Source: a virus. Taken from it: a stretch of 22,911 bases of DNA. Shown here piece by piece: positions 2,001-22,766 of the stretch. A program made the position numbers and the translations under genes. The DNA is taken from IMG/VR virus record IMGVR_UViG_3300047469_000056, positions 1-22,911 of that record. One strand, written 5' to 3'. Within the stretch, counting starts at the first letter, position 1. Each line of letters starts with the position of its first letter. The notes beneath the pieces are model-generated. The model was given only the letters and a program-made list of their open reading frames with translations. It was not told the origin of the DNA and ran no database searches.

Positions 2001-2028
2001 GGACACGCCATGAGCGAGAGGAATTCTT

Positions 2029-4146: not shown

Positions 4147-4147
4147 A

Positions 4148-6077: not shown

Positions 6078-6078
6078 G

Positions 6079-6643: not shown

Positions 6644-6840
6644 ATACTGTGGCGATGTGGATCGGATACGTGACCATGGTATCCGGTGGCGTACTTTTCA
6701 TAGCCGGAGTTGTTTGGAGTGCCGCCTATGCAATCAATGTCTCATGCAGTAAGGCACTCGCGTCATACGGGGGCTGGAAAGTGTTCAAGGAATTCGTTAA
6801 GTGGCATCGCCAGAACAAGAATGCGGGAGGTGGGGTGTGA
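6640..6840 (+). CDS. Small membrane protein
   Basis: The 66-residue protein has one hydrophobic segment at about residues 4-32 (IGYVTMVSGGVLFIAGVVWS) and a basic C-terminal tail (EFVKWHRQNKN). It therefore probably spans the inner membrane once, with the tail inside. It is the second small membrane protein in this stretch, and its start overlaps the upstream TGA. Confidence 0.6.
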   Translation: MNTVAMWIGYVTMVSGGVLFIAGVVWSAAYAINVSCSKALASYGGWKVFKEFVKWHRQNKNAGGGV

Positions 6841-7076
6841 GGCTGAGGACTGAACTTGTCGAACACGCCAAGGGAGACTCGCGTCCATTAGTGGCTGGTC
6901 ACTACGACGCATCAATGGACACGTTGGTCAATTCACTAACCCACGACGCAGCCTTGGCCCATGCGCTAACACAGGCCATAGCCGAGGCCCGCAATCACTG
7001 CCACGGATCGTGGGATACGTGCGATTTCATTAGGGAAAGGGCTGACGAACTACTTAAATCGTGGGGTTATCTGTAA
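6837..7076 (+). CDS. Hypothetical early protein, WG-end paralogue 1
   Basis: GTG at 6837 overlaps the previous TGA and follows a GGGAGG stretch; product 79 residues. It has DAALAHALTQAIAEA in the middle and ends RERADELLKSWGYL. The next two genes share this plan (an alanine-rich helix, then a helix ending in W-G), so it is the first of three tandem paralogues. The role is unknown. Confidence 0.65.
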   Translation: MRLRTELVEHAKGDSRPLVAGHYDASMDTLVNSLTHDAALAHALTQAIAEARNHCHGSWDTCDFIRERADELLKSWGYL

Positions 7077-7276
7077 TGAAGTTCAACACAAAACTTACAG
7101 TAGAAGGCGTCAACACAAAGGTCACCGGTAACTATGGGGCCTTCAATCTTGATGCGGCATTAGCCCATGCCATGTACGTAGCCATGAGCGACCTTGACAG
7201 CTCGGGGGATATTTCAGGCATCTCGTTTACCCTCCGCCAAGTTGAGATACGTGCCGACGAACTTTTACGAGAATAG
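7076..7276 (+). CDS. Hypothetical early protein, paralogue 2, ending at TAG
   Basis: The product has 66 residues from an ATG overlapping the previous TAA. It shares DAALAHAMYVAMSDL and IRADELL with the upstream paralogue. It ends at TAG where the paralogue has TGG (Trp): DELLRE-TAG-GY against DELLKSWGY. Reading TAG as an amino acid continues in frame through GYGGAD into the ORF at 7295-7474, making a 132-residue protein. Whether the TAG is a true stop, a Trp-to-stop mutation or a recoded codon is not settled. Confidence 0.6.
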   Translation: MKFNTKLTVEGVNTKVTGNYGAFNLDAALAHAMYVAMSDLDSSGDISGISFTLRQVEIRADELLRE

Positions 7277-7294
7277 GGATACGGGGGGGCTGAT

Positions 7295-7474
7295 ATGAAA
7301 AGCTATGAAATTAAATCGAAACTTCATGCGGCATATCGGGCTGGCTACCTGCTAGCCGTCTCATACGGGTTCGCCGGCTCAGAAGCAGACTTCGATAAAG
7401 ACTCGTTCTCCACTGACGAAGCAACTGATCTTATGCGTATCGATGATGAAACTTATGACTCGGAGGACAGGTGA
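7295..7474 (+). CDS. Small hypothetical ORF in frame with the preceding gene
   Basis: The ORF gives 59 residues: MKSYEIKSKLHAAYRAGYLL, an AVSYGFAGSEADFDKDS segment and an acidic end DDETYDSEDR. A run of G at 7283-7289 may serve as a weak ribosome binding site for the ATG at 7295. It is in the same frame as the gene ending at 7276 with only TAG between them, so it could equally be the C-terminal half of a TAG-readthrough product. No family recognised. Confidence 0.5.
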   Translation: MKSYEIKSKLHAAYRAGYLLAVSYGFAGSEADFDKDSFSTDEATDLMRIDDETYDSEDR

Positions 7475-7818
7475 TGAGATACATAGGTAAGCCTATTGAG
7501 GTCGCCCAGATTCTCGAAGACTACCGATACAACTCCCAAGATATATACGACCCCATAATTGAGATACGAAGTGACGGAAAGGGAGGTTGGTTTCCTAATG
7601 GCCCAGGATGTGGAAATGAGTACGTCTTCTTCCTTGCCAGGGCGTTCTACGATGCCCTACATGCCCTTGAAGAGGTGGAGATGCATGAGGGACACCAAAT
7701 GTTCTCTATAGAGGATCTGAGTGGCCTAATCACGGCCAACCTTAGGCGGTGGGGTGCAATAGATCTTCAGGACGAGCTTTACCCTCTATACATGGGCGAG
7801 GAAGACGTAAATGGCTGA
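7474..7818 (+). CDS. Hypothetical early protein, WG-end paralogue 3
   Basis: ATG at 7474 follows GGAGG (7462-7466) at good spacing; a GTG one codon upstream is an alternative. The 114-residue product opens MRYIGKPIEVAQILEDYRY and contains ARAFYDALHALEEVE and LITANLRRWGAID, the same helix-plus-WG layout as the two genes upstream, with an extended N-terminus and C-terminus. The function is unknown. Confidence 0.65.
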   Translation: MRYIGKPIEVAQILEDYRYNSQDIYDPIIEIRSDGKGGWFPNGPGCGNEYVFFLARAFYDALHALEEVEMHEGHQMFSIEDLSGLITANLRRWGAIDLQDELYPLYMGEEDVNG

Positions 7819-8167
7819 CGTGGATCTCATGCACTGCTTTCGTCGCGCCCTGAAGGATTGGGAAGAACTTCGCATAGGGGAGCATGAAGAATCTGACGAT
7901 GATAGCGAGGCCCCATGGGATGAGTTTTACGTCCGATGGGTGGAGGATCGCGTGGCATCTCTGATGAGGGACGCCGAAGAGAACGGTGTCGACCTTCCGG
8001 AGGTCAATGGTTGTGAATTCTCCCCGGAGATCGCGCTCAACCGTGCCGCTTACATTATCAGTCGTGGAACTGACGTCGATCGCGAGACCAGATGTATGGC
8101 GATCATGGCAATGCAGCTTTATGACTGGGCAATTGGTCGCCAGGGGGTGAGAAGTGGCAAATGCTGA
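7811..8167 (+). CDS. Hypothetical acidic early phage protein
   Basis: The product has 118 residues from an ATG overlapping the previous gene by eight bases. It is very acidic in the first half (EHEESDDDSEAPWDE) and helical in the second (ALNRAAYIISRG, AIMAMQLYDWAIGR). No motif recognised. It is the last unknown gene before the integration block. Confidence 0.6.
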   Translation: MADVDLMHCFRRALKDWEELRIGEHEESDDDSEAPWDEFYVRWVEDRVASLMRDAEENGVDLPEVNGCEFSPEIALNRAAYIISRGTDVDRETRCMAIMAMQLYDWAIGRQGVRSGKC

Positions 8168-8411
8168 TATTCCGGATTGGCTGACCGAGGAACACAAGAA
8201 GCGTCTTCGCCCACAAGAGCCAAGAATAAGGTTCCTTCGCCTTCCGGAGGTGTGCTCGGTGACGGGTCTGAGTCGTACACATGTATACCGACTACAGAGT
8301 CGCGGAGATTTTCCTAAAAGCATCAAGCTAGGCTGCATGACTACGGTGTGGGTTGAGTCCGAAGTCCAGACTTGGTGCCGCGAACGAATCGAATCATCGA
8401 GGTCGAAGTGA
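8154..8411 (+). CDS. AlpA/MerR-like excisionase-type DNA-binding regulator
   Basis: The 85-residue protein starts at GTG 8154. Residues 27-70 read FLRLPEVCSVTGLSRTHVYR, then LQSRGDFPKSIKLG and WVESEVQTW: the canonical AlpA pattern, a winged helix-turn-helix followed by the G-x-FP-x-x-x-xLG wing and a W-x-x-x-EV helix. AlpA proteins activate prophage excision genes or act as excisionases. Lying three genes upstream of the integrase in the same operon, it is a good candidate for recombination directionality factor or int regulator. That role is inferred. Confidence 0.85.
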   Translation: MANADIPDWLTEEHKKRLRPQEPRIRFLRLPEVCSVTGLSRTHVYRLQSRGDFPKSIKLGCMTTVWVESEVQTWCRERIESSRSK

Positions 8412-8554
8412 TGACTGTCGAATGGGATGAATTCATCGGCACACTTGATGGAAACCTAACATCTGACGAAATGAAGCGTCTATGGGATCTAATCAATGAC
8501 GTTGCAGAGAGAAGGCTTCGTGAGAAGTTTGGAGGTTCGGGCGATGAGCGATGA
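8411..8554 (+). CDS. Very small hypothetical protein
   Basis: The ATG at 8411 overlaps the AlpA-like stop. The product is 47 residues, MTVEWDEFIGTLDGNLTSDE followed by a basic-acidic helix (LWDLINDVAERRLREKFG). It overlaps the DUF4224-like start by 11 bases. No family is recognised; the coupling on both sides suggests it is translated. Confidence 0.55.
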   Translation: MTVEWDEFIGTLDGNLTSDEMKRLWDLINDVAERRLREKFGGSGDER

Positions 8555-8756
8555 CAAGCTCTGCCTGTCCCGAGAAGAAATCGCCGAGTTCACCAGGGCG
8601 CACACGCGCGCCCGCCAGTTGGCTTTCCTGCGTAACAACGGGATTCGGCACTACGTGGACAACAACGGCTGGCCTGTGGTGACGGTTGCTGCAATTGAGG
8701 GCATCAAGGCGGAATCACGCCAGCGCACGCCGTGGAAGCCGCACAAGGCCGCATAG
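8544..8756 (+). CDS. DUF4224-like small protein beside integrase
   Basis: GGAGG at 8531-8535 supports the ATG at 8544; product 70 residues. It contains LSREEIAEFTRAHTRARQLA, FLRNNGIRHYVDNNGWPVVT and ends RTPWKPHKAA. This is the DUF4224 pattern (L..eEi.elT......Q...L...GI.h......PvV), a small protein commonly found immediately upstream of phage integrases. Its end at KAA then TAG agrees with the normal family end, so TAG seems to be a true terminator here. If read through, only seven residues would be added before TAA at 8775-8777. The integrase ATG begins one base after the TAG. Confidence 0.85.
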   Translation: MSDDKLCLSREEIAEFTRAHTRARQLAFLRNNGIRHYVDNNGWPVVTVAAIEGIKAESRQRTPWKPHKAA

Positions 8757-8757
8757 G

Positions 8758-9777
8758 ATGGGACGACGCCCGAGTAACCCGAATGCCATCCCTCGCCTGA
8801 GGCTGCGTAAGCGCCCGTCAGGGGTGCACTATTACTACGACCACGGCGGCACACCGCGCCGGGAGGAGCCGCTTGGAACGGACTATGGGCTGGCAATCCT
8901 GAAGTGGGCGGCCTACGAGAAGAATCGGCACGCTCAAGAGGTTGTAGCCGAGGTCGTGACTTTCCGGCATGTCTCCGACCGCTACCGCGCCCTTGTTATA
9001 CCCAACAAGTCGCCGGCCACTCAGCGTGGCAACGAGCGAGAGCTACGCCAGCTCTTGGCGTTCTTCGATAGCCCGCCATGCCCGCTAGACGACATCCAGC
9101 CTCAGCACGTCCGCATGTACCTGAGCAGTCGGTCATCGGCACCAGTACGCGCGAACCGGGAAAAGGCCCTTCTGTCCCACATCTGGAACTTCGCCAGGGA
9201 TTATGGGTTCACCTCCCTCGCGAACCCTTGCGCCGGCATCAAGGGGAACAAGGAGCGAGCGCGGGAGATGTACGTCACGGACGGGGCATTCAAGAGTCTA
9301 TGGAACGAGGCCAGCCAGCCGCTACGGGACGCGCTCGACCTTGCCTACCTCACGGGTCAGCGGGTGTCTGACGTTCTCAGGATGAGCGATGGGGATGTGC
9401 GCGACGGGGCGCTAGAGGTGACGCAGGCCAAGACCAAGGCTCGCCTCCGCATATCGGTCACGGGCGAGCTTGCGGCATTGCTGGAGCGTATCGCCGAGAG
9501 GAAGCGCGGGTATGCCATCCATGCCCTGCGGCTGATCGTGGACGAGCGAGGGAAGCCCCTGACCTACGCCAAGCTCCGAAAGCGATTCGACGATGCCAGG
9601 ATTGCCTCTGGCGTGGACTTCCAGTTCCGTGACCTTCGGGCCAAGGCGGCATCCGACAAGGCCGATTCCAGTGGGGATATCCGGCAGGCTCAGAAGCAGC
9701 TAGGCCATACCTCCGTGGTGATGACAGAGGCTTATGTCCGGTCAAGACGAGGGGCGAAAGTCAGCCCCACGAAATGA
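8758..9777 (+). CDS. int: Tyrosine-family phage integrase
   Basis: The 339-residue protein begins MGRRPSNPNAIPRLRLRKR, the N-terminal arm-binding style of phage integrases; the in-frame ATG at 8686 lies inside the previous gene and is not used. A core-binding SAM-like region spans roughly 65-150 and the catalytic domain 165-335. Catalytic residues are Arg202 (TGQRVSDVL), Lys at 225 or 227 (VTQAKTK), Arg294 in FRDLRAK, His317 (QLGHTS) and Tyr326 (TEAYVRSR). The first position of the usual HxxR box is Arg291, a variant I recall from related phage integrases. The enzyme inserts phage DNA at a tRNA; the matching tRNA-Leu fragment starts 64 bases downstream. Confidence 0.96.
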   Translation: MGRRPSNPNAIPRLRLRKRPSGVHYYYDHGGTPRREEPLGTDYGLAILKWAAYEKNRHAQEVVAEVVTFRHVSDRYRALVIPNKSPATQRGNERELRQLLAFFDSPPCPLDDIQPQHVRMYLSSRSSAPVRANREKALLSHIWNFARDYGFTSLANPCAGIKGNKERAREMYVTDGAFKSLWNEASQPLRDALDLAYLTGQRVSDVLRMSDGDVRDGALEVTQAKTKARLRISVTGELAALLERIAERKRGYAIHALRLIVDERGKPLTYAKLRKRFDDARIASGVDFQFRDLRAKAASDKADSSGDIRQAQKQLGHTSVVMTEAYVRSRRGAKVSPTK

Positions 9778-9779
9778 CG

Positions 9780-10010
9780 ATTGCGGAACGGATCAGGAAT
9801 TGCGGAACGAAATGGCTATGGCGAATACCCTCGCAGCCCTTGGTGCCCGGAGTGGGACTCGAACCCACATACCCTTACGGATGAGGGATTTTAAGTCTGT
9901 CGTGAAATGGCCGTACAAAGCCGTTTATGGACCATTCCTGTTCCGATTACATAGCGATTTCATGATATCCATATCCCTTGTTTTAGGATGCCAAGGAAAT
10001 ATTGCGGAAC
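9780..10010 (+). repeat. Three direct copies of ATTGCGGAAC around the attachment core
   Basis: Exact copies of ATTGCGGAAC occur at 9780-9789, 9799-9808 and 10001-10010, all in the same orientation. Two lie between int and the tRNA fragment and one lies on its far side. A degenerate inverted form (GTTCCGATT) lies at 9940-9948. Short direct repeats on both sides of a core are the usual layout of integrase arm-type binding sites in attP. Direct observation of repeats; function inferred. Confidence 0.8.
9841..9897 (-). other. Attachment-site core: 3' part of tRNA-Leu(UAA)
   Basis: On the minus strand the sequence reads from the anticodon loop ACTTAAAATCCC through a long variable arm, a T arm GTGGG-TTCGAGT-CCCAC (9852-9868), the acceptor strand TCCGGGC and an encoded CCA (TGG at 9841-9843). 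The anticodon is UAA, so the target is a class II tRNA-Leu. The 5' half is missing: no GCCCGGA acceptor strand or D arm is found upstream on this strand. A phage-borne 3' tRNA fragment beside int is the expected attP core; if the window is an integrated prophage with permuted order it could instead be an att end. Confidence 0.9.
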
Positions 10011-10297: not shown

Positions 10298-10783
10298 TTA
10301 CGCCCGGCTATCGGCCACCGTGATGTTCTTGAAGGCCGTAGCAAGGGCAGCATCCGTCACGGTGACGCGGTACACGCCGGAGGCCGCACTACCCTGGGGC
10401 GGGTTGCCGGCACGCGCAAAGGTCGTGCTCTGACCGCTTGGTGTACCGAGGGTGTACGTGCTGCCGCTGATGTTGGTCCATGCGTAGGTGTACGGAGGCG
10501 TGCCGCCGCTCGGGCTAGCGAAGCCGGTCCCGAAGATGCTACCCGTACCAGGCCAGCTATCGCCGCTTACATCGTTGGCATTGACCGACAGCGGACCGAC
10601 ACGGGTTGCCCCGTAGAAGTTTGTCAGGCCGATGGCTCCGGAGGTGGGCACGCCTGCGTTAGCTCCGGTATTCGCCACCCACGTACCGCCACGGTAGAAG
10701 GAGGTCAGTCCCGTACCGCGAGGGGCGAGGAATTCGTCCTAGATACTCTGAAGCGATATCGCCCCGCTGGCCGGAAGGGTCAT
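10298..10783 (-). CDS. Tail/fibre-type protein with Ig-like domain; one in-frame TAG
   Basis: The ATG at 10783 overlaps the fibre stop as TAATG. The N-terminus MTLPASGAISLQSI-TAG-DEFLAP is the classic 'LPASGxISLxxI..E' opening of phage structural proteins, including the SFYRGG element, and is found only if the TAG at 10739-10741 (codon 15) is read through; Gln fits. Later comes GGTPPYTYAWTNISGS ... GVYRVTVTDA, an Ig/PKD-like beta-sandwich pattern around residues 90-155. Product 161 residues, stop TAA. Probably a virion surface or fibre-associated protein; inference from domain and position after the tail fibre. Confidence 0.82.
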
Positions 10784-12039
10784 TACTTGCCCTCCAGAGC
10801 CCGTACGCGGGCCGCCAAGCCGATCACTGCCTCAAGGGCCAGCATTGCCTTGTCCACGCCGAGAACGCCGCTATCGTCCTCATAGACGTACTCGGGGGCC
10901 ACCTCGCGAACCTCATCAGCGATCACGCCAAGGTCAGGGCGGCTGTCCTTCTTCCACGTAAAGGAGACGAAGTTCAGCGAGTCGGCAAGATCCTGACGCG
11001 CCTTCCGCTTCTTGACGTACTTCTTCAGGCGGCGATCCGACGTGGCGATGAAGTTCGGACCTGTCCAGACGCCCGTGACCGTCGTGTTGCCCGTCGTGGC
11101 GCTGATGGTGATGGTGTCACCAAGGCCGCCATTGAAGAACAGGCGGGCTGACCCCGTCGTGTAGTACCACTGGGCAGTGGCACCCGAGTTTGTACGATCG
11201 GCGAACGTGAATCCGCAGCCGCCACCATCCACTGCCACCTGATTGTGGACCGTGACCTGACCGCTAGAGGTGATGGCACCCGAAGTCACCAGCGTGGATG
11301 CGTTAATGGCCGTCAGGTTGACGGTTGCCAGCCCTTCGTGGACGAGGCGGTTAGCGACGGCGCCCGCAGACCAGCCACCCACCTTCCACGCGTTGTCCGT
11401 ATCAATACCGAGGTAGGAGGCAAAGGCACCTGTTCGGTTGAATTCGAGGAAGGCCGCATTGGCGCCTGATGCACCAACCACGGCAACCTTGCCCAGCGAG
11501 GCGGTAGCCGTTGCCATGCCGCCCGACGTAGGTGCTGTCGTGACCTTGCCGGTAAGTGTGCCACCGACAAGGGGGAGATAGGCCGCAAGGACCGTCGTCA
11601 GGTCGGCAATATCGGCCGAGGCAATCTTCGATCGCGGCCCCGTCATCCGCCAGTTGCCGGACCCAAGGCTGCGGAAGGTGAAAACGTCCCCCGCGGCTGC
11701 CGTGATATTTGCGGCATTCGGAAGGACAATGGCGGTAGAGTTGGTAATGACGGCACCGGCCGACTGGAAAACTACCTCGCGCTTGATACCGGGAGGGGTC
11801 GTGCCGAAGCTGGTAATCGCGGCCGAGCCGGTGACGATGACGGACTCGGCATCAGCGGTTCCCAGATCCGTCGTCGAAGCCGATGCGAGTGTGGCCGAGG
11901 CAAGGGCATTCGTGGACCGGAGAATGGCCTACACGGCCCGCAGGTAGTCGTCCAGGCTGTTACCAATAGCGTCCGACCCCGCAGGGCTGTTACTAGCCGG
12001 AAGGGTCGCCAGATCGGACATTTTAGACGGAACGGGCAT
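10783..12039 (-). CDS. Tail fibre/spike with C-terminal S74 intramolecular chaperone; one in-frame TAG
   Basis: The 418-residue product starts at ATG 12039 behind GAGGTG. The N-terminus has PAGSDAIGNSLDDYLRAV followed by TAG at 11929-11931 (codon 37), then AILRSTNAL; Gln fits this helical virion-anchor region. A beta-rich central part includes YLPLVGGTLTG and VTSGAITSSGQVTVHN. The end is a peptidase S74 chaperone: ATSDRRLKKYVK (Ser334), FTWKKDSRPDLGVIADEV, YVYEDDSGVLGVDKAMLALE and a terminal helix. This domain trimerises the fibre and then cleaves itself off at the Ser of SDRRLK. The gene follows the ejection genes, as expected for a podovirus receptor-binding protein. Confidence 0.92.
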
Positions 12040-12062
12040 TTCCACACCTCAGAGGGTTAAGC

Positions 12063-12260
12063 ATGCTGTTATTCATCAAGATATTTGGCGGATTCATCAT
12101 AGCTCCGCTCGTCACGGTGCTTTTGTATGGCACCGCCCGGCTTGTCGCGATGGCCGTCGCCAAATGGATGCCAGAGTGCGGGCTCAAAAGAGCCCTACTC
12201 ACCGATACAGAAACGAAGAAGCTGGCTTACATCCCGCCTGCGAGCAAGCCGCGACGCTGA
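12063..12260 (+). CDS. Small membrane protein on the opposite strand within the late module
   Basis: The 65-residue product MLLFIKIFGGFIIAPLVTVL continues through YGTARLVAMAVAKWMP and ends with the basic tail PPASKPRR. It has one transmembrane helix. The layout (hydrophobic helix, ARL...A..MP...LKR.L) is reminiscent of tiny membrane proteins in other phages. AGAGGG lies just upstream of the ATG. Its last 34 bases overlap the end of the ejection-protein gene on the other strand, and it contains no TAG. A lysis or exclusion role is possible but unsupported. Confidence 0.65.
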   Translation: MLLFIKIFGGFIIAPLVTVLLYGTARLVAMAVAKWMPECGLKRALLTDTETKKLAYIPPASKPRR

Positions 12261-14152
12261 TTCACTTGCGGGGCCGCTGTTGACTGACCGAGCAGACCGG
12301 CACTCATGCCCAGATTTTGCAGTAAAGCACTCTTGGTGGCCGGATCGATGGTCGGATCACGCAAGACCTTAGCCAGTACTTGTGGCGAACTATTTAGTCC
12401 CTGGAAGGCTCGTGCAGCACCAACCGCAAACCCCGCAGCGGGAAGATGAGTTGCTCCACCGGCTCCAAGTAGCCCATAGGCAGCGAGCCTCTCAGGTGTT
12501 CCGCTATTCGGAATGCCGTCCTTAAGGAACTGCTGTCCAATTGCAGCAAGCTCGGCAAGATCGCCCCCGCGACCGGATGCTACAGCCTCCTTCTTTGCGC
12601 CAGTCGCCGTTACTCGACCGAGTAGAGCGGCAGGACTGATATTTCCGTTTACCTGGTCCTTGGTGACGAGGTCACGAATTGTCTTTAGGTTGCCGTATTG
12701 CTGATTTGCCTGCCGCCACGCCGCCTGGTCTGCCGGGGAAATTGAATCATCAAGGGCAGAGGAGAGAATGCCGCGGATCTAGCCGGCATAGTTGCCCTTC
12801 TCACCACCGGACCGCGCAATTTGCCCGAGCTGGGACTGGACCGACTGAAACGCCGTGCCAGGAAGCAGCCCTTCCTGGGTAGCCTGTTTCTGGATTCGGC
12901 CGAGAAGGCTGGTGACGGCACGAACACTGTCATCGCTACCCGTCTCCGTGGCTTCACCGAGAATGCCGGCAAGCTTATCCTTGACCCCATTCAGATCAAT
13001 GGTGTTGCGCGATGTGATGTCGTCGTAAGTGGCTCCAATCCGCTTCTTAGCAGCTGAGTACAGGGCCGGGGTTATGGCATCAGCGTCCTCACCGATGGTC
13101 GAAGCCACGGCACGATTAAACGCTTTTTGCTGGTCGGCCCCGATGCGGCCTGCTCCGCTGAAGGGCACCTTTGCGCTAACTGAATCGAGCGTCTTGCTGA
13201 TCCTACTGTCAGATACCTAGCTCGCCTTGAGTGGGATGCCGTAGTCCTGAATGGCCGTCTTCGCGAGAGCTGCGGCCTCTGGCGTAGCCTTGGACATAAG
13301 GTTTCCAGCCACCCATCCAGCAGTTCGACGTGCCACCTGACCGCCACCGGCGATAAGCCCGCGGCCGCCTACGCCAGCACCAGCACCGATGGCTGCATTG
13401 AGTAGGCGGTCACTCTCGTCCTGTCCGGAAGCCAACGGCTGCATAGCCCCTTGCGCAGCTCCGGACATTGCTGTTCCGCCGTAGCCTTCCGGAAGCACTC
13501 CGCGGGCCATGCCAGCTCCCTTGAGCGCAGTTCCCGCAGCCACGGCCTGAAGGGCTTGGCCTGTGATGTTGCCGAGCAAGCCCGACTTCGTCTTCATGAG
13601 GGCGGCATCACTGGCGTTAACCTAAGACTGCTGTTCTTTCAGGTCTCCATAGGTTTCCGCCAGTGGCTTTCCGACAAGGTCGGGGGAGCCCGTAATCTGC
13701 GCAGCCACACTAGTTGGGAGCGTGGCTAGTCTCGCAAGGCCAACCCCAGACTGGGCCATGCCTCGCATATTGTCTAAGACTGATTTCCCTGCTCCGGCTT
13801 CAAAATTTGATACGCCTGGAGACTGACCTATGCCAGTGTCAATTCCGGCGACACTGAGGTTACTGCCACTCTCTGCCGCTGAATTATGGTACGCCGCCAA
13901 TTCTTCCTGTGTCGGACCGCGCAGAGTCGCGCCCTGTGCACGAAGACCACGAAACAGGGCTGTAGATGCTTCGTCGTCGCCTGCTGCGCGGGCGCGGTAG
14001 AAAGCCTGCGCTAGCGCCTCAGGGTCATACTGAGTGGCCGCTTGGGAAGGCTGCGCCTAGTTAATCGCTCCCTGGAGCACTGCGACCGCCTACTAGTCAC
14101 CAGAAGACTAGGCATTGGCTAGTGCAGCCTGAAGCTGTTCAATGGTCGCCAT
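12227..14152 (-). CDS. Large ejection-type internal virion protein; seven in-frame TAG codons
   Basis: ATG at 14152 overlaps the previous TAA as TAATG. A single frame runs to TAA at 12227-12229, 641 residues, if TAG is sense. The TAGs are codons 15, 20, 21, 32, 177, 312 and 458 (14108, 14093, 14090, 14057, 13622, 13217, 12779). The start reads LQAALANA-TAG-SSGD-TAG-TAG-AVAVLQGAIN-TAG-AQPSQ, a helix where Gln is natural. Later parts are Ala/Gly-rich and amphipathic (GNITGQALQAVAAGTALKGA, AIGAGAGVGGRGLIAGGG) with long helices, typical of podoviral DNA-ejection proteins. No TGA or TAA interrupts the frame. The ejection role is inferred from composition and gene order. Confidence 0.9.
14090..14095 (-). 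other. Tandem TAG TAG codons inside the ejection-protein gene
   Basis: Codons 20 and 21 of the gene starting at 14152 are adjacent TAGs, in the context SSGD-TAG-TAG-AVAVLQ. Two more TAGs lie at codons 15 and 32. Translation past this point needs efficient amber decoding. Confidence 0.95.
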
Positions 14153-15375
14153 TACTTGCCCCCATGTAGGGCCAATGCCTGCTCAACAGTCATGCCTTGC
14201 GGTGCAGAAGCCGCCTGCGGAGCCCCACCCGTGGCCTTCTGCACGGCCATGCCCTTCTTCTTAGCCCGCTCAAGACCCTGCCTGAGAACGCCAACGGCGA
14301 CATCTACGTGCTTGATAACATCAGCCTTCGACATATTCGGGTCAATTGCAGAGATGGCATCGGTGGCCTTCTGGCCCTCTACATCCGTGATTGCGCCACC
14401 ACCACGAAGCTGATTGAACGCCTGAAGGAACAGGCTTCCTTTGAAGCTGTCGAGATCACGTCCGAACGTGTAAGCATCCGTGCCGGGGATATTTCGCGTG
14501 ATTCCGCCGATGATGCCTGTGCCCTCTCCAATTCCCTTCGACATTTTCAGCGCGTTGGCTGCATTGATAGCGTTGGTAACGTTGTCGATGCCGGCCTCAG
14601 ATGCTTGCGTGGCGTCAGCATTCTTCAATTGCTGGCTGGTGTCTCGGAAGGTGTTATTGCCGATGACGCCAGCACCGCCAGCCTGCACAGGAGTAACTTC
14701 GCCAGTGATCTTGTTGACGTTGTAATACTGGCCGTCCTTCCCCTGGATGAGCTGGAACGCGCCGGGACCGAAGTGCCCGCCGCCCGCGCCACCAGATCCG
14801 CCAATACCCATCTGCTTCGGGTTCCAGCGAGGGGCGGTAGCGATCGTTTTCCACGAGCCATCCGGCTGCTGCTCCTGCGTCAGGATGTTGTCACCGCTGT
14901 TGATCTCGCGTGTCGTTCCCTGGAGGTCGCGCTGTGCCTTGTCCGTCTGCAAGCCAACTAGCTTGTTGCGTAGTTCGTTCTGGTGCAATTCCATGGCCTG
15001 TTGCGGATACTTCTCCGCGACTTTGGCGATGTAACCCTCCATGTCGTTCTTGCCGTTACTAAAGAACGGAAGCGCCATATCTTGGATGTCACGACGGATG
15101 CGGATCTGCTCCTGCTCGTCGTCCATCTTCGACTGCTGAAACTGCATTTGCTGCTGCTTGAACTTGTCTTGCTGTAGCTGCTGCCCACCCTACTGAGCGG
15201 CCTGAAGACCACCCAACAGACCGCCGGAGATAGCCTGCATGGGCGACACGCCCGGCTGACCGTTGGCCTGAAGAATGCCCAGCCCGGCCTGCAACAGGCC
15301 ACCACGGGCAAGCTGCGCCCTCTCGTCATCCGAGGCGCCGGGGGTGGGGCCGATAAGACCGTCATACCAAGCCAT
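14152..15375 (-). CDS. Gln-rich internal virion / ejection-type protein; one in-frame TAG
   Basis: ATG at 15375 overlaps the preceding TGA as TGATG. The start MAWYDGLIGPTPGASDDERA runs into a helical segment GGLLGGLQAAQ-TAG-GGQQLQQDKFKQQQ; the TAG is at 15190-15192 (codon 62) in a Gln-rich coiled-coil-like stretch. With it read as sense the product is 407 residues, ending TAA. The middle includes DGQYYNVNKITGEVTPVQ and a C-terminal helical region with SFKGSLFLQAFNQLRGGGAI, familiar from phage structural proteins of the ejection group. Function inferred from position between other ejection-type genes. Confidence 0.88.
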
Positions 15376-15788
15376 CAGCGCATACTCCCAAGCAGTCCGA
15401 GACGAGAGCCGTTACCGATGTATCCGGCCTGACCTTGCTGGACCTGACCAAGAGCGCCGCCCGCACGACCGCCACCGAACTATGGCTGACGGTACGCCGC
15501 CATATCCGTCTGTTGCGGGTTAGTCTGCTGGGAATTCAGTGCAGCAAGTGCCTGCTGGAAGGAAGGGCCCTGCGCCTACTGGCCGGGGTACTGGCTTTTC
15601 TGTAGCGCCCACTGGCCGATCTTAGAAAAGTCCAGGCCTTGTGTAGCCGCAGACTATGCCTGTCCGCCACCAAGCACCTGGCTGTAGTCCGTCGCCGGCT
15701 GGAATTGCTGGTATTGCTGCATCGGTATCTACGCTTGTGCATTTGCGTTCGGTGCGGCCATGCCTGAGAGAAAATCGAAAGTGCCCAT
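15375..15788 (-). CDS. Small Gln-rich virion protein; four in-frame TAG codons
   Basis: The frame from ATG 15788 to TGA 15375-15377 gives 137 residues if TAG is sense. TAGs are codons 20, 45, 71 and 103 (15729, 15654, 15576, 15480). Contexts: NANAQA-TAG-IPMQQYQQF, GGGQA-TAG-SAATQ, QYPGQ-TAG-AQGPSF, AAYRQP-TAG-FGGGRAGG. The protein already has 25 Gln codons, so four TAGs would bring Gln to about one residue in five. Under the standard code no product longer than 57 residues remains in this frame, so the gene is missed entirely by ordinary gene finding. Likely a small internal or tail-assembly protein. Confidence 0.88.
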
Positions 15789-15797
15789 GTGTCCGCC

Positions 15798-16886
15798 TTA
15801 GAGGTAATAACCCATAGCAGCAAGTCCGCCACCGATAAGTGCGCCTGCGCCTGCACCGATGGGACCGCCGGCCGCACCAATCGTTGCACCAGTGGCAGCG
15901 CCAGCTAGCGCACCGCCACCTACCGCAGCAGCAGCCCCACCAGCCGTGCGTGGCTTGTACGCGGGGTTGGTGCCAGAGGTGGACGAGCCCTGGAAATTGC
16001 CCGCTACAGAATTGAGGGCGTTCCCGTAGTTATTGAGCCGCTGCTGATCGTAGCCGTAGTTCTTCTGATACCAGTCGTTGTAGTTCTGATCGATGTTGCC
16101 CTGGGCGAAGTCCTGCTGCACCTGACCCATGCCGGCAAGCTGGCTGTTCCATTGCGACTGTAGGGCCTGCTGACCGTTGAGTGCGCTCGATGCGCCAAGG
16201 AAGTTCTGGACGCTCTGCCCTGCCGACTGGAGGTTGTTCTGGAAATACTGCTGGTCCAGTGCCGAGTTGCGCGCAAGGTCGGTCTACTGGGCCTGTACGG
16301 ATCGGTTGAGCGCGTTCTCGGCAAGGCCCTGCTGGGTCGTGTAGTCGTTGAATCGGAGGCTATTCGTGGACTGCGCGAGGTTCTTCGCCAGCGTGTCCTA
16401 GGATGCCTGCCCGGCCTGCTGCATGGCCGAACCGCCGAATGCCCCACCCTGTGCGAACTGGGCCGCTAGAGCTGGCACGGCGTTCTGGTTGTACTGGTCG
16501 GTAATGTTCTGGTTCGAATCATTGACCATCTGGTTGAGGTACTGATTCTGTCCCGCGTAGGGGTTGGTGCCGACGTTGGTCGTTGCGCCCTGATACGCGT
16601 TGCGGTTCACGGGAACGTTGTACAGGCCGTTAAGGACGTTCGTCAGTGCACCCGACTGAGAGTACGTCCCCGGCAGCTACCCAGCGGCACCTGCTTGTGC
16701 CGTCTGCAATGCCTGGTTCTGTCCGGACGAGAGGCCGGCGTTGAGCTGGCCCTAGTAGGACTGGTACGGCTTTGCATTGGCCGCATTTGTCTGCCCGAGG
16801 AAGTCGGTGTATGCCGTATTGAGCCACGGCGGCAGCTCCGTCTTGGTCGTGGAGGTCGTGTTCTTTGGTGCTGAAGACCCGCCCAT
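15798..16886 (-). CDS. Ejection-type virion protein with glycine-zipper end; four in-frame TAG codons
   Basis: ATG at 16886 overlaps the previous TAA as TAATG; stop TAA. The 362-residue product has TAGs at codons 45, 70, 163 and 201 (16752, 16677, 16398, 16284). Contexts include KPYQSY-TAG-GQLNAGL, GAAG-TAG-LPGTYSQSG, QQAGQAS-TAG-DTLAKNL and NRSVQAQ-TAG-TDLARNS. Early ELPPWLNTAYTDFL and 'PYQ.Y.GQ..AGLS' are known openings of podoviral internal proteins. The middle is Gln/Asn-rich helix; the last 50 residues are Gly/Ala-rich (GGGALAGAATGATIGAAGG), a glycine-zipper membrane-inserting segment. Likely part of the DNA-ejection apparatus. Confidence 0.9.
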
Positions 16887-17329
16887 TAGGTAACCTCGTA
16901 ATATGCTTTCATGAGACGAAACCTCTTACTCTTGACCCACGAGGAATCCTGAGTGGTTGAGAACACGATGCGCTCCAGGCCCATTTCACCCGCGATGCGT
17001 TTGGACAGTTCGATGCCGTAATGGCCGTAGTCCGACTTCTCTGCATGACCTAGCCAGATATTAAGGACCGGGCTTGTTTCGTAGGCCACAGGCATCACTT
17101 CGTAGACACCGAATCCGGCATGCACACCCTACATATCGGTAAAGGTGTACAGGGCCGCTCTGCCGGTCGCCAGGGCCGTGTAAACGTCCTCCGGAATCCA
17201 CGACTCGCCATTGCACTCCCTGATCTTCACAATGCCGGGGAGGACGATGGGCCACGCCTGTCTAACGTCGGCCACGTAGGTGTAGTTCAGGACGCCATCG
17301 GCTGTTACGCCGGAGATGTTAGGAAACAT
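16886..17329 (-). CDS. GNAT-like small phage structural-cluster protein; one in-frame TAG
   Basis: The preferred ATG is 17327-17329, three bases after the previous gene's TAA; an upstream in-frame start at 17365 would overlap that gene. The TAG at 17129-17131 (codon 67) sits in LYTFTDM-TAG-GVHAGFGV. Read as sense it joins two halves into 147 residues: EDVYTALATGRAALY, then VLNIWLGHAEKSDYG and RIAGEMGLERIVFSTTQDSS. This layout resembles short acetyltransferase-fold phage proteins found next to tail genes. No substrate can be named. Stop TAA overlaps the next start. Confidence 0.85.
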
Positions 17330-17331
17330 CG

Positions 17332-17640
17332 TTAGTTGCCTGTAAGAGTGCGGACGGGGAGCCATGTGCCTGGCGTACCGGCGACGGTGCAGGTCCAGCC
17401 CTGTACGGTGTATTTCGAGCCAGCGGTGCCCAGTTCAGTCGGGGCGGAGTTGCGTACGAAGTCGCCCGCTGCATTCGTTCCCGACACGGGGATCGTGGCC
17501 TGCGCGTTCTGCACGGCAGCCACACGCCCTTCGGTCAGGTTGTTCAACTGGTTCGTCAGGTCGCGGATGATGTTCGTGAGCCGGAGGACGAGCTGTTGCT
17601 AGTCGCTGGGCAGGCGCGGATCGGTGAGTAGACGGGTCAT
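17332..17640 (-). CDS. Small virion protein; one in-frame TAG
   Basis: ATG at 17640 overlaps the upstream TGA. The N-terminus reads MTRLLTDPRLPSD-TAG-QQLVLRLTNIIRD, TAG at 17599-17601 (codon 14), immediately followed by CAA CAG, so amber as Gln would give QQQ. The C-terminal half (AAGDFVRNSAPTELGTAGSK, GWTCTVAGTPGTWLPVRTL) is a familiar phage tail-associated module ('GDFVRNS.P.ELG..GSKY...GW.C...GTPG.W...R.LTGN'). Product 102 residues, stop TAA. Confidence 0.88.
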
Positions 17641-19094
17641 TCGGTTGTCGTCGCCAGGAGGTCGGGCATGTAGCCGTCGATCGTCATCGCACCCGGCCAG
17701 TCCATCCGGCAACTGTGCCAACGGGCATCGCGATGGAAGTCGAAGCGACCGCGGCTCTGCATGATCGTGGCGTCCTGCACGGGATCGGTGCCAAGGTCGT
17801 AGCGGTAGTAGTTCGTGCCCTGTGCCGAGTCCGGGGCGTTCCTGTATCGCGGGGTGACGCGGCGGAGCATGGAGAAGTTCGTCTCGTCGCCGATGTCGCC
17901 CGTGATGAGGTAGGACGGTCCCGGAATACCGGTCAGGCTGTAGAGCTTATGGTCCGTGCTGATGACGCCAGGAACCGTGTTGTCCTGAATCCAGAACGGT
18001 GAGTCGTAGCTGATGTTCGGCAGGGCGTCGTAGGTGGCGTAAAGCGTTCCCAGTCCATCGTAGGTGACGTTGCCGGAGGAATACTGAATCACCGCCTCGA
18101 TGGATCGAGTGAACTTGCCCCACTTGTTCGTGCGCAGGTTGTAGACGATGCATTCGTCACACGTCCCGTCCGTGGATGCGGTGCTGGGGAAGTACCAGTA
18201 CACCAGATCGCGGGTCAGGTCGGCACCGCCCTTGATATTGCCTCGCTGCAGGCCGTTGAGGTTGGTGAAGAACCATTCGCGAACCGGAGCACCGATGCTA
18301 CGCGGCACCGTGCCATCGTAGACGTAGAAGTCAGCCGGGCCGACGAAGAAATGGGACGAGCCCACGACCACGACCGCCTCTTGCCCGGAGCAGCCGATAT
18401 CGCCGGGGATGCGCTGCCATGACCAGATCAGGGGCGGGCCGGCGTACTACCCAAGGAACATGGAACGCTCCTTGTAGGCCACTACGGTGTCGCCTAGCTC
18501 ACGTCCAGCAGTGATCGGGCCGGGAGCCGTGACCAAGCGACCGTTGGCCGCCTGCGTCGTTGCAGAGGGCGTCCACGAGGCCTGGTTGAACAGGGCCGAG
18601 CACCACCACCCGTCAGGCTGGTCGCCGAAGCCTCCGGTCAGGTCCACGACGTTGAAGGCCAGCACGAAGTTAGCCGCCGAGCAGATGATGGCAGCAGCCG
18701 GTGCATCGGCGATATCGGCGAAGTTGGCCGACTGTGGGGCCTATTGGATGCGTTGGGCACGGTTGGCGGCAAGGATGTTGTTGCCGAACATGGTGAAGCG
18801 CCACGGAGCAAGGCCGGTGTAGCCGCCCACCCTGGATCGATCGGTCCACACGCCACCCGAGATGTCCCACAGCTTTGCGTTGGTGCCCGCGACGATACGC
18901 TTGGTGCCGTCCAGCAGCGTCCCAACGTAGGCACCCTTGCACGCACTGTCCAGCGCGGCGAGACCTGCATCTACCAGGCTGTTGCCAGCAGAGAAACCCT
19001 GCGTAGACGGGATGATATTGTCGCAATCGACGATGGCCCCCGGCGTCGAAGGGTCCAGATCGGGCGTGAAGCCGATAAGCGGGATGTTACTCAT
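17637..19094 (-). CDS. Phage tail/virion protein (propeller-like); two in-frame TAG codons
   Basis: ATG at 19094 overlaps the preceding TGA. The 485-residue product opens MSNIPLIGFTPDLDPSTPGA, continues with DCDNIIPSTQGFSAGNSL and GTKRIVAGTNAKLWDISG, the standard opening of a podoviral tail protein family with repeated beta blades. TAGs are codon 118 (18741-18743: NRAQRIQ-TAG-APQSANF) and codon 216 (18447-18449: RSMFLG-TAG-YAGPPLIWSW). The remaining segments (IGAPVREWFFTNLNG, VYNLRTNKWGKFTRSIEAV) match the same family order. Read with the standard code the gene falls into three pieces. Stop TGA. Confidence 0.92.
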
Positions 19095-19693
19095 GCCGTG
19101 ATGAAGTCCACATGCGGACGCGGCGAGGGTCCGTAGCGCAGCATGTCGTCATTAGCACGCATGGCCGTGAGTGCCGTAGTGTAGCCCTGACCGAACAGGG
19201 CCGTACGCTGGTCGTCGCGAAGGTAAATGCACGCCTCCAGAAGCGTCCCATACAGATACAGCTGTGGCTGGGCCAGAATCAGCCAGTTTTGCGTGGCTGC
19301 ATCGGAAAGACTGGGGATGTTGCCGTAGTAGAACAGACGGTAGTCCGCATCCGCAGCGCCCACGATATTGATGACGCCGTTGACCATGGTGTAGCCAATC
19401 GGGAGCACGAAAAGCTGAGAATTCGTGTCCTGAATCGGCGGAACAGGATACAACTCACGCTCGACGCCGTCAGTGGTGACGATGAGCGCCTGGACCTGTC
19501 GAAAATCCGAGGGCGGCGTGATCTGACCAGCTACAGACGTACCCGTTACAAGTCGCTGCTGAGGCGACAGACGCAAATCGTTGTTCATCCTCGCTTCGGC
19601 AAGCTGGATGAAGGTCGGAATGATGCCGCCTAGATCGGCACGCGCAAGAAACTACGCGACGTTGGATTGTAGGGTGGCGTAGTCGTTCAGCAT
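19091..19693 (-). CDS. Head-to-tail adaptor-like protein; one in-frame TAG
   Basis: ATG at 19693 follows the upstream TAA by three bases. The start MLNDYATLQSNVA-TAG-FLARADLGG leads to IIPTFIQLAEARMNNDLR, the typical opening of phage adaptor/tail-tube-type proteins ('YadL...va.wl.R.DL...ip.fi.laEarinrdLR'); the TAG is at 19652-19654 (codon 14). Later parts are FRQVQALIVTTDGVERELYP, VNGVINIVGAADADYRLFYY and the helical LYLYGTLLEACIYLRDD. Product 200 residues. By family and position it should sit between portal and tail. Confidence 0.9.
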
Positions 19694-19696
19694 TGG

Positions 19697-19984
19697 TTAG
19701 ACCTTGCCCTGCCAGATGCGGAAAGAGGCGAATGCGGACGAATTCAGGAGTCGCCGAAGGTGCTCGGGGTTCACCTCAAACTCGTGGGGCGTGATGCCGT
19801 GGATATTGATGTAATCCTCGACCAGTACATTAGGCAGCTTGGCCGCATGTTTCATTTCATGCGAACCGACAGCGCCCACAGACCTTAGGGCGGCACACGC
19901 GTCGAGAATGGGCTCGATATCCTGAACCCGGTTCTGCGTCATATCGTCTCCGTCAAAGGAGACATAAGTCTTAATCAGGCCCAT
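19697..19984 (-). CDS. Conserved small phage protein ('FRIWQGKV' end)
   Basis: The 95-residue protein begins MGLIKTYVSFDGDDMTQNRV and contains DIEPILDACAALRS, HEMKHAAKLPNVLVEDYIN and ends LLNSSAFASFRIWQGKV. The pattern 'EPIld.a..l....e..h.A.iP..v.e.y....Git..ef..n.eH..rlLn...fa.FRiw.G.v' is common among podoviral head genes; its function is not known to me. No TAG. The start overlaps the previous gene's end by ten bases; stop TAA. Confidence 0.8.
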   Translation of the reverse strand: MGLIKTYVSFDGDDMTQNRVQDIEPILDACAALRSVGAVGSHEMKHAAKLPNVLVEDYINIHGITPHEFEVNPEHLRRLLNSSAFASFRIWQGKV

Positions 19985-20283
19985 TCGATAGGCACCACGT
20001 TAACGAATCCGCCCGCTGCGTTCTGGATGACTGCAAACACGTCGTAATTCTGGACATTGACCACAATCGCGTCACCAGGCATCAGCAGGGTGTCGTTGGT
20101 CGTGGCAGTCGCGGTGGTCTTGTTGAACCTGATGTGGGCGGCGACGGTCGCCGTGGCACGCACGTACTTGGCAACCACGCCTGCTGAGTTGACAGGAATA
20201 GCCGTCTGTGCGGATGAGGCTCCCGAGGCTACCGTGACGCCCACAACGTCAATGTTGAGGCTGGTGATTGGGGACTTGAACAT
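19975..20283 (-). CDS. Small beta-rich head protein (possible decoration/head-fibre)
   Basis: The product has 102 residues, MFKSPITSLNIDVVGVTVAS with many beta-prone Val/Thr stretches (KYVRATATVAAHIRFNKTTA, LLMPGDAIVVNVQNYDVFAV). It lies directly downstream of the capsid gene, where decoration, cement or head-completion proteins are often encoded. The role is therefore an inference from position and composition. No TAG; GGGAG precedes the ATG; stop TGA. Confidence 0.7.
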   Translation of the reverse strand: MFKSPITSLNIDVVGVTVASGASSAQTAIPVNSAGVVAKYVRATATVAAHIRFNKTTATATTNDTLLMPGDAIVVNVQNYDVFAVIQNAAGGFVNVVPIEWA

Positions 20284-20301
20284 TAACTACTCCCAAGGGA
20301 A

Positions 20302-20319
20302 GGCCCCCTTTCGGGGGCC
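20302..20319 (-). terminator. Hairpin after the capsid gene
   Basis: On the minus strand GGCCCCC-GAAA-GGGGGCC forms a seven-pair all-GC stem capped by a GNRA-type tetraloop, 18 bases past the capsid TAA. It is followed by UUCCCUU rather than a clean U run, so it may be an attenuating terminator or an mRNA-stabilising end that raises capsid expression over downstream genes. Confidence 0.6.
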
Positions 20320-20336
20320 AACCACATTGCAGGTTC

Positions 20337-21272
20337 TTACGTGAGGTCGCGGATCTGGGCGTGGGCGTCCTTGTTGTCCATCTGGAGGCCGAATTCCCAG
20401 GTAATCAGCATCTTTTCCGCATCGCCCGTCTTCGCCAGCGGCTTTGCCTCGACGTTACGCAGCGTCTTGAAGCTAACGTGGTCGTAGTCGAGCAGGTAGG
20501 CCGCGGCATCAATGAAACGATCCGGAACCACCTTCAGCGAGCCGAAGTCGGTCACGTATACGTCGTAAGCAGCGTGCAGCTTGTTGCTGTCGGCCTGCTC
20601 GAAACGCGTGGCGTTTCCGGTGAAGCCCGACACGATAACCTTGTCGGACGGACGGACGAGGAGCTGAGACGGAGCACCGCCAGCCGTGTAGGCCGTCTGC
20701 ATCGCCGACTTCACAAGTGCCTCGGAAAGCGCACGAGGCGTACCGGCGACCGGAGCCGTATTGGTGGACGGGACAGGAAAAACGCCAGCACCCGCACCCA
20801 CGGAACCCTGGGTGATCCAGCCAGCGAGTCCGCGCGTCTGGCGGGCGACAGTGGTGGAACCTGCGTTGAACGTGGTGTTCTGAACCAGGCCCGTTTCGGC
20901 GTCGCGCTTCAGTTCCTTGAGCTTCTTCGACTTCTGGTAGGCGATTTCCGACTTGCGGCCGGCCTTGTCGACCACTTCTTCGGTATCGGAGATGATGAAG
21001 TTCTTTGTCGAGACTTGGCAGTAATTGCCCCAGCGAGTAGAAGGAGTAACGGCCGTGAAGCTGGCAACGTCATCGCCTTCGAGCTGGGCGTTATTGGCCG
21101 CGGCAGCAAGGGAGTCGGTCTGCCATTCGAAGAAGCGGGCCGAAGCCTTGCCCTTCTTGAGCGCCGAGTAGAACGGGGTGTCAGTCGGCGAGATCATATC
21201 GATAACGTCCGACAGGTCCTCACGCTAGCCGATCGCGGAGTACGTGGTGTAGGTATTGGCAACAATGGTCAC
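20337..21272 (-). CDS. Major capsid protein, SU10/DUF5309-like; one in-frame TAG
   Basis: GTG at 21272 follows GAGGA at good spacing. The product (311 residues) reads MTIVANTYTTYSAIG-TAG-REDLSDVIDM then ISPTDTPFYSALKKGKA: the invariant start of the SU10-like major head protein family, where the peptide before ISPTDTPF normally includes 'G.REDLsD.I'. The TAG is 21225-21227 (codon 16). Starting instead at the downstream ATG (21197) removes this conserved N-terminus. Other family features are ARFFEWQTDSLAAA, NYCQVSTKNFIISDTEEVVD and FGSLKVVPDRFID. It forms the icosahedral shell. Stop TAA, then a hairpin. Confidence 0.95.
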
Positions 21273-21282
21273 TTAACTATCC

Positions 21283-22308
21283 TCATTTTGAGCGGGCCAG
21301 CAGGAATGCGGCGACATCATCGACATTGCCAGTGCGCTTGGCGCGTTTGGCTAGGTCGTCAACCCTCTTCTGTGCTGGCGTATTTGTGGGGGTGTTGGCA
21401 TTGCCGGCCTGGACCGCCTTGGGCGGGGTTTTGGCCTGCACTACCTGCTTCTGCTTAACTGCCTGCGCGCGATCCCACATAGCTGCCTTGTGGGCAATCA
21501 GGACGGCGCGGTGATCGATGAGTTCGCTCAGTTCGTCGGGGCTGTAACCTTGTGAGACGAGGAAGTCAGCCACATCGCGTTGGGCCGCTGCTCGCTTGGT
21601 CTGGTCACGCCACTCAGGCAACTTCTCCAGCAACCGTTCTTCGTTCTCGCGGAGAGATTCGTCGCGGGCTTTCGCCGCTTCGTTCTTCTTCATCTGCTCG
21701 ATGGCGGAATGGTGGTGCTGAATCTCATTGAGGCGTGCCGATTTGGACGCCATTTCCTGCTGTTTTGCGACCCATGCTGCGGGGTCGCTCTGGGCTAGCT
21801 CGGCAAGTTTCGCTTGGTCCCCTACAAGCTCCTGATAGAGCACGCTGCCGAGCACTTGAAGCTGGTTGATACGGGTCTCGTATTCCTGCTTCACGAACTG
21901 GCGTTCTTGCGTGATCTGCGAGGTTAGCTATGCGGCTTCTTGCGTCTTGCGGGTGTAATCCTGCTGCCGCATGTAGCCCTTGAAGGCTTCATCGACAGAA
22001 ACTTCCAGCTCCTCACCCTGGACGGTGATCTTCTTGGTCTTGGTCAGCCATTCGTCTTCCTTGGCCTTGGCTGCCGCGGCTTCCTTTTCCTCGGGAGTCG
22101 TCGTGTCGTCATCCTTGGCTGTGTCGTCATCCGTTACGGCATCATCTGCCTGTTCGTCGTCATCCTTGGGCTCGTCATCCGTCTTGGCCGGCTCATCCTA
22201 AGCGTCGTCCGGGTACTTCGGCTCAAGGCGCTTGAGAATTTCGTCTTCCGTCATCCCTTGCAAAGGTTCGATGGCGGTGTTTTCGACTTCCCCATTGGGA
22301 TTGGTCAT
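21283..22308 (-). CDS. Scaffolding protein; two in-frame TAG codons
   Basis: ATG at 22308 to TGA 21283-21285 gives 341 residues if TAG is sense. TAGs: codon 37 (22198-22200, PKYPDDA-TAG-DEPAKT) and codon 127 (21928-21930, RKTQEAA-TAG-LTSQITQER). The N-terminal third is extremely acidic (Asp/Glu repeats), followed by KKITVQGEELEVSVDEAF, GYMRQQDYTRKTQ and a long Gln/Glu/Lys coiled coil, with a basic Ala-rich end. This is the usual scaffold layout in phages, directly upstream of the capsid gene. It guides procapsid assembly and then leaves. Confidence 0.92.
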
Positions 22309-22320
22309 GGTGAATACTCG

Positions 22321-22479
22321 TTAGGGTGAAATTGTGGTCCCGTCGTTCAACAGAACCTTCCAGTTGCCTCTTTCTACCGGAGCGCCTGAGCGGGCCCCAG
22401 TCCACGTATCCTGGCATTCGAACGGAACCCAGATGCGACACACGGTAAGTGGCCGGATGAGGCACTCAACGCCACTCAG
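22321..22479 (-). CDS. Very small late protein with uncertain start
   Basis: The frame ending at TAA 22321-22323 encodes CLIRPLTVCRIWVPFECQ, DTWTGARSGAPVERG and NWKVLLNDGTTISP, a plausible small phage protein. There is no ATG. A CTG at 22479 would overlap the previous TGA in the four-base CTGA style and give 52 residues; a GTG at 22443 gives 40. Neither has a clear ribosome binding site. No TAG. Confidence 0.5.
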   Translation of the reverse strand: MSGVECLIRPLTVCRIWVPFECQDTWTGARSGAPVERGNWKVLLNDGTTISP

Positions 22480-22766
22480 AACGCTACAGAGGCTCGGCCA
22501 GTTGCTTGGGCCACGCGCATCTTCAGGGTGGCTTCCGCCATCTTCCCCGATTCGATCAGCGACGACAGGTGCGCTTGCACTCGTTCCGACGCTTTCAGCA
22601 TCAGGTACAACTTTTCGCGGCCGTCCGCGTCTCTTGCCGGTGACTGTGCCCATCGTTCCTGTACCTCGTGTGCGAATACGGCGAATGCTTCGGCGATCAG
22701 TGGCTCAGCGAGGAGCTGTGCTGCCTTCTGGCCGCGCTGGATCTCGGCTTCAAGGACGTCGGTCAT
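22476..22766 (-). CDS. Small conserved phage head-gene protein
   Basis: The product has 96 residues, MTDVLEAEIQRGQKAAQLLA followed by EPLIAEAFAVFAHEVQERWA, DADGREKLYLMLKASERVQA and a final helix. The layout 'LEaEi.RG..A..LL..pl..eAf..........W......D..gRE.L......l..v..hL......G' is a recurrent small helical protein between portal and scaffold genes in podoviruses. The function is unknown. ATG overlaps the upstream TGA. No TAG. Confidence 0.78.
   Translation of the reverse strand: MTDVLEAEIQRGQKAAQLLAEPLIAEAFAVFAHEVQERWAQSPARDADGREKLYLMLKASERVQAHLSSLIESGKMAEATLKMRVAQATGRASVAF

Follow-up and report, generated by a model that had tools for sequence, protein, structure and literature searches.

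TAG as a probable glutamine codon in the late genes of a temperate podovirus-type phage and its relatives

Background

The leftward virion genes of the viral DNA described here are broken again and again by TAG, and by no other stop codon: the question is how this codon is read, and whether it is read in the same way throughout the phage cycle. The reason why phages recode stop codons remains open, and most work on it concerns gut phages that are hard to culture. Reading of TAG as glutamine (genetic code 15) has been described for phages of the gut, crAss-like ones among them (Peters 2022, PMC9523058, with Borges 2022 and Ivanova 2014 as cited in it), and proteomics shows glutamine for two gut phages (PMC9523058 and work cited there). 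Both code-15 phages and the idea that recoding times the late genes are already published (PMC9523058, PMC10879173 and PMC13059738, citing Borges 2022). Suppressor tRNAs linked to theta ribozymes have been described from Bacteroidota/Bacillota phages (PMC10879173).

The whole stretch analysed, referred to as the window, is a linear IMG/VR fragment of 22.9 kb (22,911 nucleotides), whose right edge lies inside the 3' end of a portal gene.

Results

In-frame TAG in the late genes

The features of the window are reported in Table 1. Within the minus-strand late genes (10298-22308), the frames opened by code 15 contain 27 TAG, no TAA and no TGA. One of these, at 20289, precedes a conserved start, which brings the count to 26 TAG in 12 genes, the figure given by the initial annotation. 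What had been claimed about the structure of these genes holds as well: TGA and TAA never interrupt them, all end in TAA or TGA, and no frameshift is involved, since alignments to relatives continue across the sites, where CAG/CAA or TAG is often found. The rejoined pieces do restore known families: PHROG matches of capsid, scaffold, tail, adaptor and ejection proteins cross the TAGs. ORF calling with table 11, as anticipated, splits the virion genes at TAG into a broken string, while a compact virion operon results when TAG is taken as an amino acid; standard annotation will split the virion genes of these phages in general. When the same DNA is read in its other two frames, the stops are 136 TGA, 49 TAA and 45 TAG. 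Since TAG makes up only 20% of this background mix, chance is excluded as the reason for finding 26 stops that are all TAG (probability about 4e-19). The late genes of the window share with those of code-15 phages in-frame TAG and no other stop. Lysis genes of relatives also carry in-frame TAG.

No clear internal sense TAG was seen in the early genes of the window (399..8411 and the integrase region), in agreement with the claim that sense TAG is limited to late genes. Two local features may be mentioned. In the ejection protein at 12227-14152, two of the seven TAGs are adjacent (codons 20-21) and the N-terminus is poorly conserved. Positions 1-131 hold a tandem array, with 4.9 copies of a 27-base unit encoding in-frame Ala-Thr-Ala-Ser-Gly repeats, found also at the ends of two relatives (G003 and G006).

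Table 1. Features of the window, with positions of in-frame TAG codons
Feature	Position	Strand	Remarks
Early genes	399..8411	+	phrog_21613 protein, RecE-like exonuclease, SSB, small genes, excisionase (8154-8411)
Small early gene (probable)	7076..7276	+	ends in TAG
DUF4224 gene	8544..8756	+	upstream of integrase; ends in TAG
Tyrosine integrase	8758..9777	+	phrog_1, E 5e-49; standard code; start ATG 8758 or upstream TTG
attP candidate	9841..9897	-	57 bases like 3' part of tRNA-Leu(UAA); 88% to Dyella tRNA
Extra ORF, no assigned status	9983-10288	-	one TAG
Tail protein	10298..10783	-	TAG at 10741
Tail fibre protein	10783..12045	-	PHROG match; TAG at 11931
DNA ejection protein	12227..14152	-	phrog_26400; TAG at 14110, 14095, 14092, 14059, 13624, 13219, 12781
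Ejection-type virion protein	14152..15375	-	phrog_2534; TAG at 15192
Late gene	15375..15788	-	TAG at 15731, 15656, 15578, 15482
DNA ejection protein	15798..16886	-	phrog_4287; TAG at 16754, 16679, 16400, 16286
Late gene, no assigned function	16886..17365	-	TAG at 17131
Late gene	17332..17721	-	TAG at 17601
Virion structural protein (tail)	17637..19094	-	phrog_3287; TAG at 18743, 18449
Adaptor/virion protein	19091..19693	-	phrog_2941; TAG at 19654
Small head gene	19697..19984	-	phrog_3982; without TAG
Small late gene	19975..20283	-	TAG at 20289, upstream of conserved start (Met 20283)
Major capsid protein	20337..21272	-	phrog_1328, 3-311, E 2e-89; TAG at 21227 (codon 16)
Head scaffolding protein	21283..22308	-	phrog_3927 over nearly full length; TAG at 22200, 21930
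Small conserved late gene	22476..22766	-	phrog_8161; no TAG; just downstream of edge-cut portal gene

Residue encoded by TAG

Capsid relatives at 48-97% identity were taken from IMG/VR. When window genes are aligned to their relatives, conserved columns at the window's TAG sites are most often occupied, in the relatives, by a Gln codon or by TAG. The capsid TAG faces TAG in 17 relatives and CAG in 6; CAG is present in 14 relatives at 18743 (TAG in 6) and in 14 at 16400, while at 15192 seven relatives have Gln and three TAG. BLOSUM-based scoring of the residues at locally conserved sites gives, for the window (21 sites), 22.4 bits to glutamine and 9.4 to glutamate, a lead of 13 bits. The corresponding scores for Gln and Glu are 110 vs 42 bits in clade A2, 185 vs 85 in clade B, where 120 of 169 closest residues are Gln, and 59 vs 30 in a Dyella prophage; glutamine is first in every lineage scored, further relatives and a second lysogen included. 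TAG-free sister phages exist, and several of them have CAG/CAA at the places of TAG.

The reading of amber as glutamine in late genes, proposed by the initial annotation, is therefore supported by column alignment in every lineage, by the CUA tRNAs of relatives described below and by the TAG-free sisters, although no peptide data are available. Serine, leucine, tyrosine and pyrrolysine are ruled out by the Gln columns, even where the suppressor has a Ser-like body.

Suppressor tRNAs of the relatives

No tRNA was found in the window, which stops short of the tRNA site seen in relatives. Nearly complete relatives (37-41 kb) feature one tRNA with a CUA anticodon between the lysis cassette and the terminase, about 5.4-7.1 kb upstream of the capsid gene in the fuller records; in window coordinates, its position may be inferred to fall some 4-5 kb past the right edge. 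The CUA tRNA is present in all 13 recoded relatives that include the lysis-terminase stretch, and absent from the five TAG-free relatives with that stretch (G007, G011, G016, L009, L013), one of which, G016, has a tRNA-Gly in its place. Further recoded records also carry it, and two more TAG-free ones do not.

At least six dissimilar tRNA bodies occur among these suppressors. The clade of the window contributes two class-I types; the others are a class-II type whose variable arm is long, one Glu-like and one Gln-like body, a type of 71-72 bases in which the D-arm is reduced, and a 94-base Ser-like type. All share the same acceptor end, composed of a mismatched 1-72 pair and G73; the tRNA-Gln of the host (Dyella) has U1-A72 and G73. 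E. coli GlnRS prefers tRNAs in which pair 1-72 is weak, position 73 is G and the anticodon contains U35. The acceptor end of the suppressors is thus of a kind typical of glutamine identity and, with the CUA anticodon, would suit charging with glutamine by the host enzyme, the charging itself being inferred. The repeated conversion of different bodies to Gln suppressors, with one acceptor end, amounts to a natural experiment in tRNA identity. That the suppressors arose directly from Dyella tRNAs was rejected, the best matches being only 62-78%.

The Ser-like CUA tRNA, located at L175:2619-2712, also has the 1-72 mismatch and G73; in this record, TAG columns score 22 for Gln vs 1 for Ser. A search of the window and six relatives at Rfam gathering thresholds found only tRNA, and neither a theta ribozyme nor another RNA family beside the tRNAs, weaker members not being excluded. 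In IMG/VR viral contigs, 61 stretches (loci L116-L169, 31-65% GC) match the acceptor-end pattern TGGGG...TCTAA...CCCCCGCCA; many of them feature CUA tRNAs together with TAG-bearing long ORFs, very large contigs included. Judged by this pattern, the suppressor acceptor-end signature is widespread in IMG/VR.

Host and lysogeny

Contig 5 of Dyella sp. SG609 (Gammaproteobacteria) harbours one recoded relative as a prophage, recovered as L030, L015 and G010 and flanked on the left by more than 390 kb of host sequence; a second recoded prophage resides in another genome of the same family, Rhodanobacteraceae. The proteobacterial host guessed in the initial annotation is thereby supported, and the host of the window phage is probably a member of this family, by kinship only. 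The window itself contains an integrase, an excisionase and an attP candidate; together with the integrated relatives, these indicate a temperate phage.

The Dyella host uses the standard code: 11 of its 61 long ORFs end in TAG (18%), there are two genes for class-I release factors, and the 43 tRNA types recovered include none with a CUA anticodon.

As to attachment sites, the attP candidate of the window resembles the Dyella tRNA-Leu(UAA). At its right end the Dyella prophage has 53 bases (contig 5: 429760-429812) that repeat part of tRNA-Arg(CCU) exactly, the intact gene being elsewhere in the host; only 16 bases match on the left.

TAG as a stop in early genes

In the early regions of recoded relatives, 34 of the 217 ORFs end in TAG (about 16%, some of the 34 being doubtful ORFs), near the host rate; antisense ORFs of the late region are left out of this count. 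Repressor genes end in TAG in five relatives (G003, G004, G009, G014, G010), AlpA-type genes in three (G002, G003, G009), and integrase (G004, G010), lipoprotein (G001, G009) and metallophosphatase genes (G002, G003) in two each, the last at the same place where aligned homologues end. No late gene ending in TAG was seen in the set of 201 family members examined as late: in nine, a TAG is found close to where the family ends, but eight of these read on to their customary end, and the ninth is an early gene for which TAG is a genuine stop. That TAG is always sense in the whole genome is thereby ruled out. Early genes of recoded relatives end in TAG and no late gene does, which indicates a code split by phase and not by genome.

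Within the early region of the window itself, TAG probably keeps its role as a stop, in the DUF4224 gene and in ORF 7076-7276. For the former this rests on gene spacing, the terminal TAG preceding by one base the integrase ATG at 8758; no DUF4224 relatives were found in phages, plasmids or viral contigs, by which the TAG at 8754 might be tested as a true end.

In four relatives (G003, G009, G014, G010) the repressor frame runs past its TAG into the next, lipoprotein-type gene, and readthrough would fuse both. Amber might conceivably act as a two-way switch between lysis and lysogeny, terminating repressor and integrase in the lysogen and gating the late genes, a rise in tRNA then causing repressor readthrough and a spoilt repressor, so that lysis is locked in; this remains a speculation to which little weight is given.

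Position of TAG within late genes

TAG makes up 12% of the Gln-type codons (TAG, CAG, CAA) of late genes. Its distribution is not even: 28.5% of TAG lie within the first 40 codons, vs 8.9% of CAG/CAA. Overall, 128 of 449 TAG fall in this interval, where 70.6 are expected from within-gene label shuffles; for the window alone the figures are 11 and 4.7 (reached in 1 of 2000 shuffles). The effect is kept when shared sites are collapsed to alignment columns (57 vs 41.6 expected, 0 of 2000). In clade A, TAGs are also spread over genes: 17 of 18 genes carry at least one in G001 (11.2 expected) and 19 of 20 in G002 (13.1 expected), and in the window 12 of 13 (9.1 expected). Clade B shows a weaker 5' bias and no even spread. 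Such placement fits a checkpoint on each late gene; a plainer cause of the 5' bias could be that failed readthrough costs less near the start.

According to the portal tree, at least three changes occurred between the recoded and the non-recoded state, with the TAG-free G016/L009 nested beside the window's clade. A GC-richer clade (65-66%; G012, L029, G013, L018-L020) features the suppressor tRNA but few TAG codons, and may possibly represent an early or a late stage of recoding.

Discussion

The window would derive from a family of soil viruses, as part of a temperate phage of podovirus type whose hosts are Rhodanobacteraceae (Dyella and related bacteria) and in which TAG has two readings. 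During lysogeny and the early phase of infection, TAG would terminate translation just as it does in the host; at the late lytic stage, a phage CUA tRNA, charged with glutamine by the host GlnRS, would read it as glutamine in structural and lysis genes. As most late genes carry TAG, often near the start, their full translation would have to wait until the tRNA builds up, and TAG would work as a translational checkpoint. Confidence in the decoding part, with late TAG read as glutamine through a phage CUA tRNA, is high: it is backed by the Gln columns and by the co-occurrence of tRNA and TAG in relatives, along with the standard code of one relative's host. The window's own tRNA, its charging by the host GlnRS and a competition with RF1 are inferred. 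The timing role, to which the early TAG stops of relatives and the 5' bias speak, is likewise an inference without protein or expression data, and is favoured only by a modest degree.

The strongest alternative accepts that late TAG is glutamine and denies it any regulatory role: the suppressor would be selfish or drifting, or would serve to disturb host termination, and TAG would drift to wherever its cost is low. A Gln codon is one mutational step from TAG, recoding has been gained or lost several times, and the many TAGs of clade B are not evenly spread over genes, all of which this explanation accommodates well. Drift alone, however, would not leave early genes with TAG stops at about the host rate and without any clear internal TAG, nor is it favoured by the presence, in clade A, of about one TAG per late gene; it remains a serious minority possibility. 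Much less can be said for a host that itself reads TAG as an amino acid, through a code change or a suppressor of its own. The lack of a tRNA in the window would be compatible with it, but relatives carry their own CUA tRNA, TAG-free sister phages exist, and for the Dyella relative a host-wide change is ruled out by ordinary TAG stops, two release-factor genes and the lack of a CUA tRNA among those recovered; such a host is very improbable. That the TAGs are real stops, of short genes or of decayed prophage genes, is suggested only by the broken ORFs of table 11, and is hardly tenable when TAG alone is found, never TAA, TGA or a frameshift, with protein sequence conserved on both sides, one capsid TAG shared by 17 relatives and the same pattern in many separate records. 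Pyrrolysine or another residue can be discounted to the same extent: ARAGORN labels the tRNA as Pyl, a label given to any CUA tRNA, while Gln columns are found in all lineages, the bodies are ordinary tRNA ones with G73, and glutamine prevails even with the Ser-like suppressor of L175.

Late translation gated by a phage tRNA thus remains the preferred reading. Since close temperate relatives with and without recoding are available, along with lysogens in sequenced isolates (Dyella sp. SG609), the timing hypothesis can be put to the test. The initial annotation had described neither the suppressor tRNA nor the 5' bias of TAG, nor the fact that lysogeny genes use TAG under the standard code. In the open literature, which does not prove absence, no earlier report of such recoding in Dyella or other standard-code Gammaproteobacteria was found. 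New here are a GC-rich temperate podovirus clade of Gammaproteobacteria with lysogens in isolates, its convergent suppressors and positional evidence for a gating of late translation.

Among known systems, the phrog_1328 podoviruses (e.g. Pseudomonas and Rhizobium phages) share the capsid family and, by PHROG, scaffold, adaptor and ejection genes, but the identity of the window capsid to those of deposited phages is at most about 47%. Phages with theta-ribozyme-linked suppressor tRNAs (PMC10879173) are similar in that a phage suppressor tRNA is proposed to switch on late genes; here, in contrast, no theta ribozyme at gathering score lies next to the tRNAs. A further parallel is given by the code-15 gut phages, from which the late-gene timing hypothesis originates: they too have TAG as glutamine in structural and lysis genes, a phage CUA tRNA and a standard-code host. 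Unlike them, the present phages form a temperate podovirus-type clade of 37-41 kb and 56-66% GC, found in Gammaproteobacteria and as prophages in sequenced isolates; suppressor bodies are swapped among close relatives, TAG stops are kept in lysogeny genes, and the 5' bias and the one-per-gene pattern of TAG have been measured.
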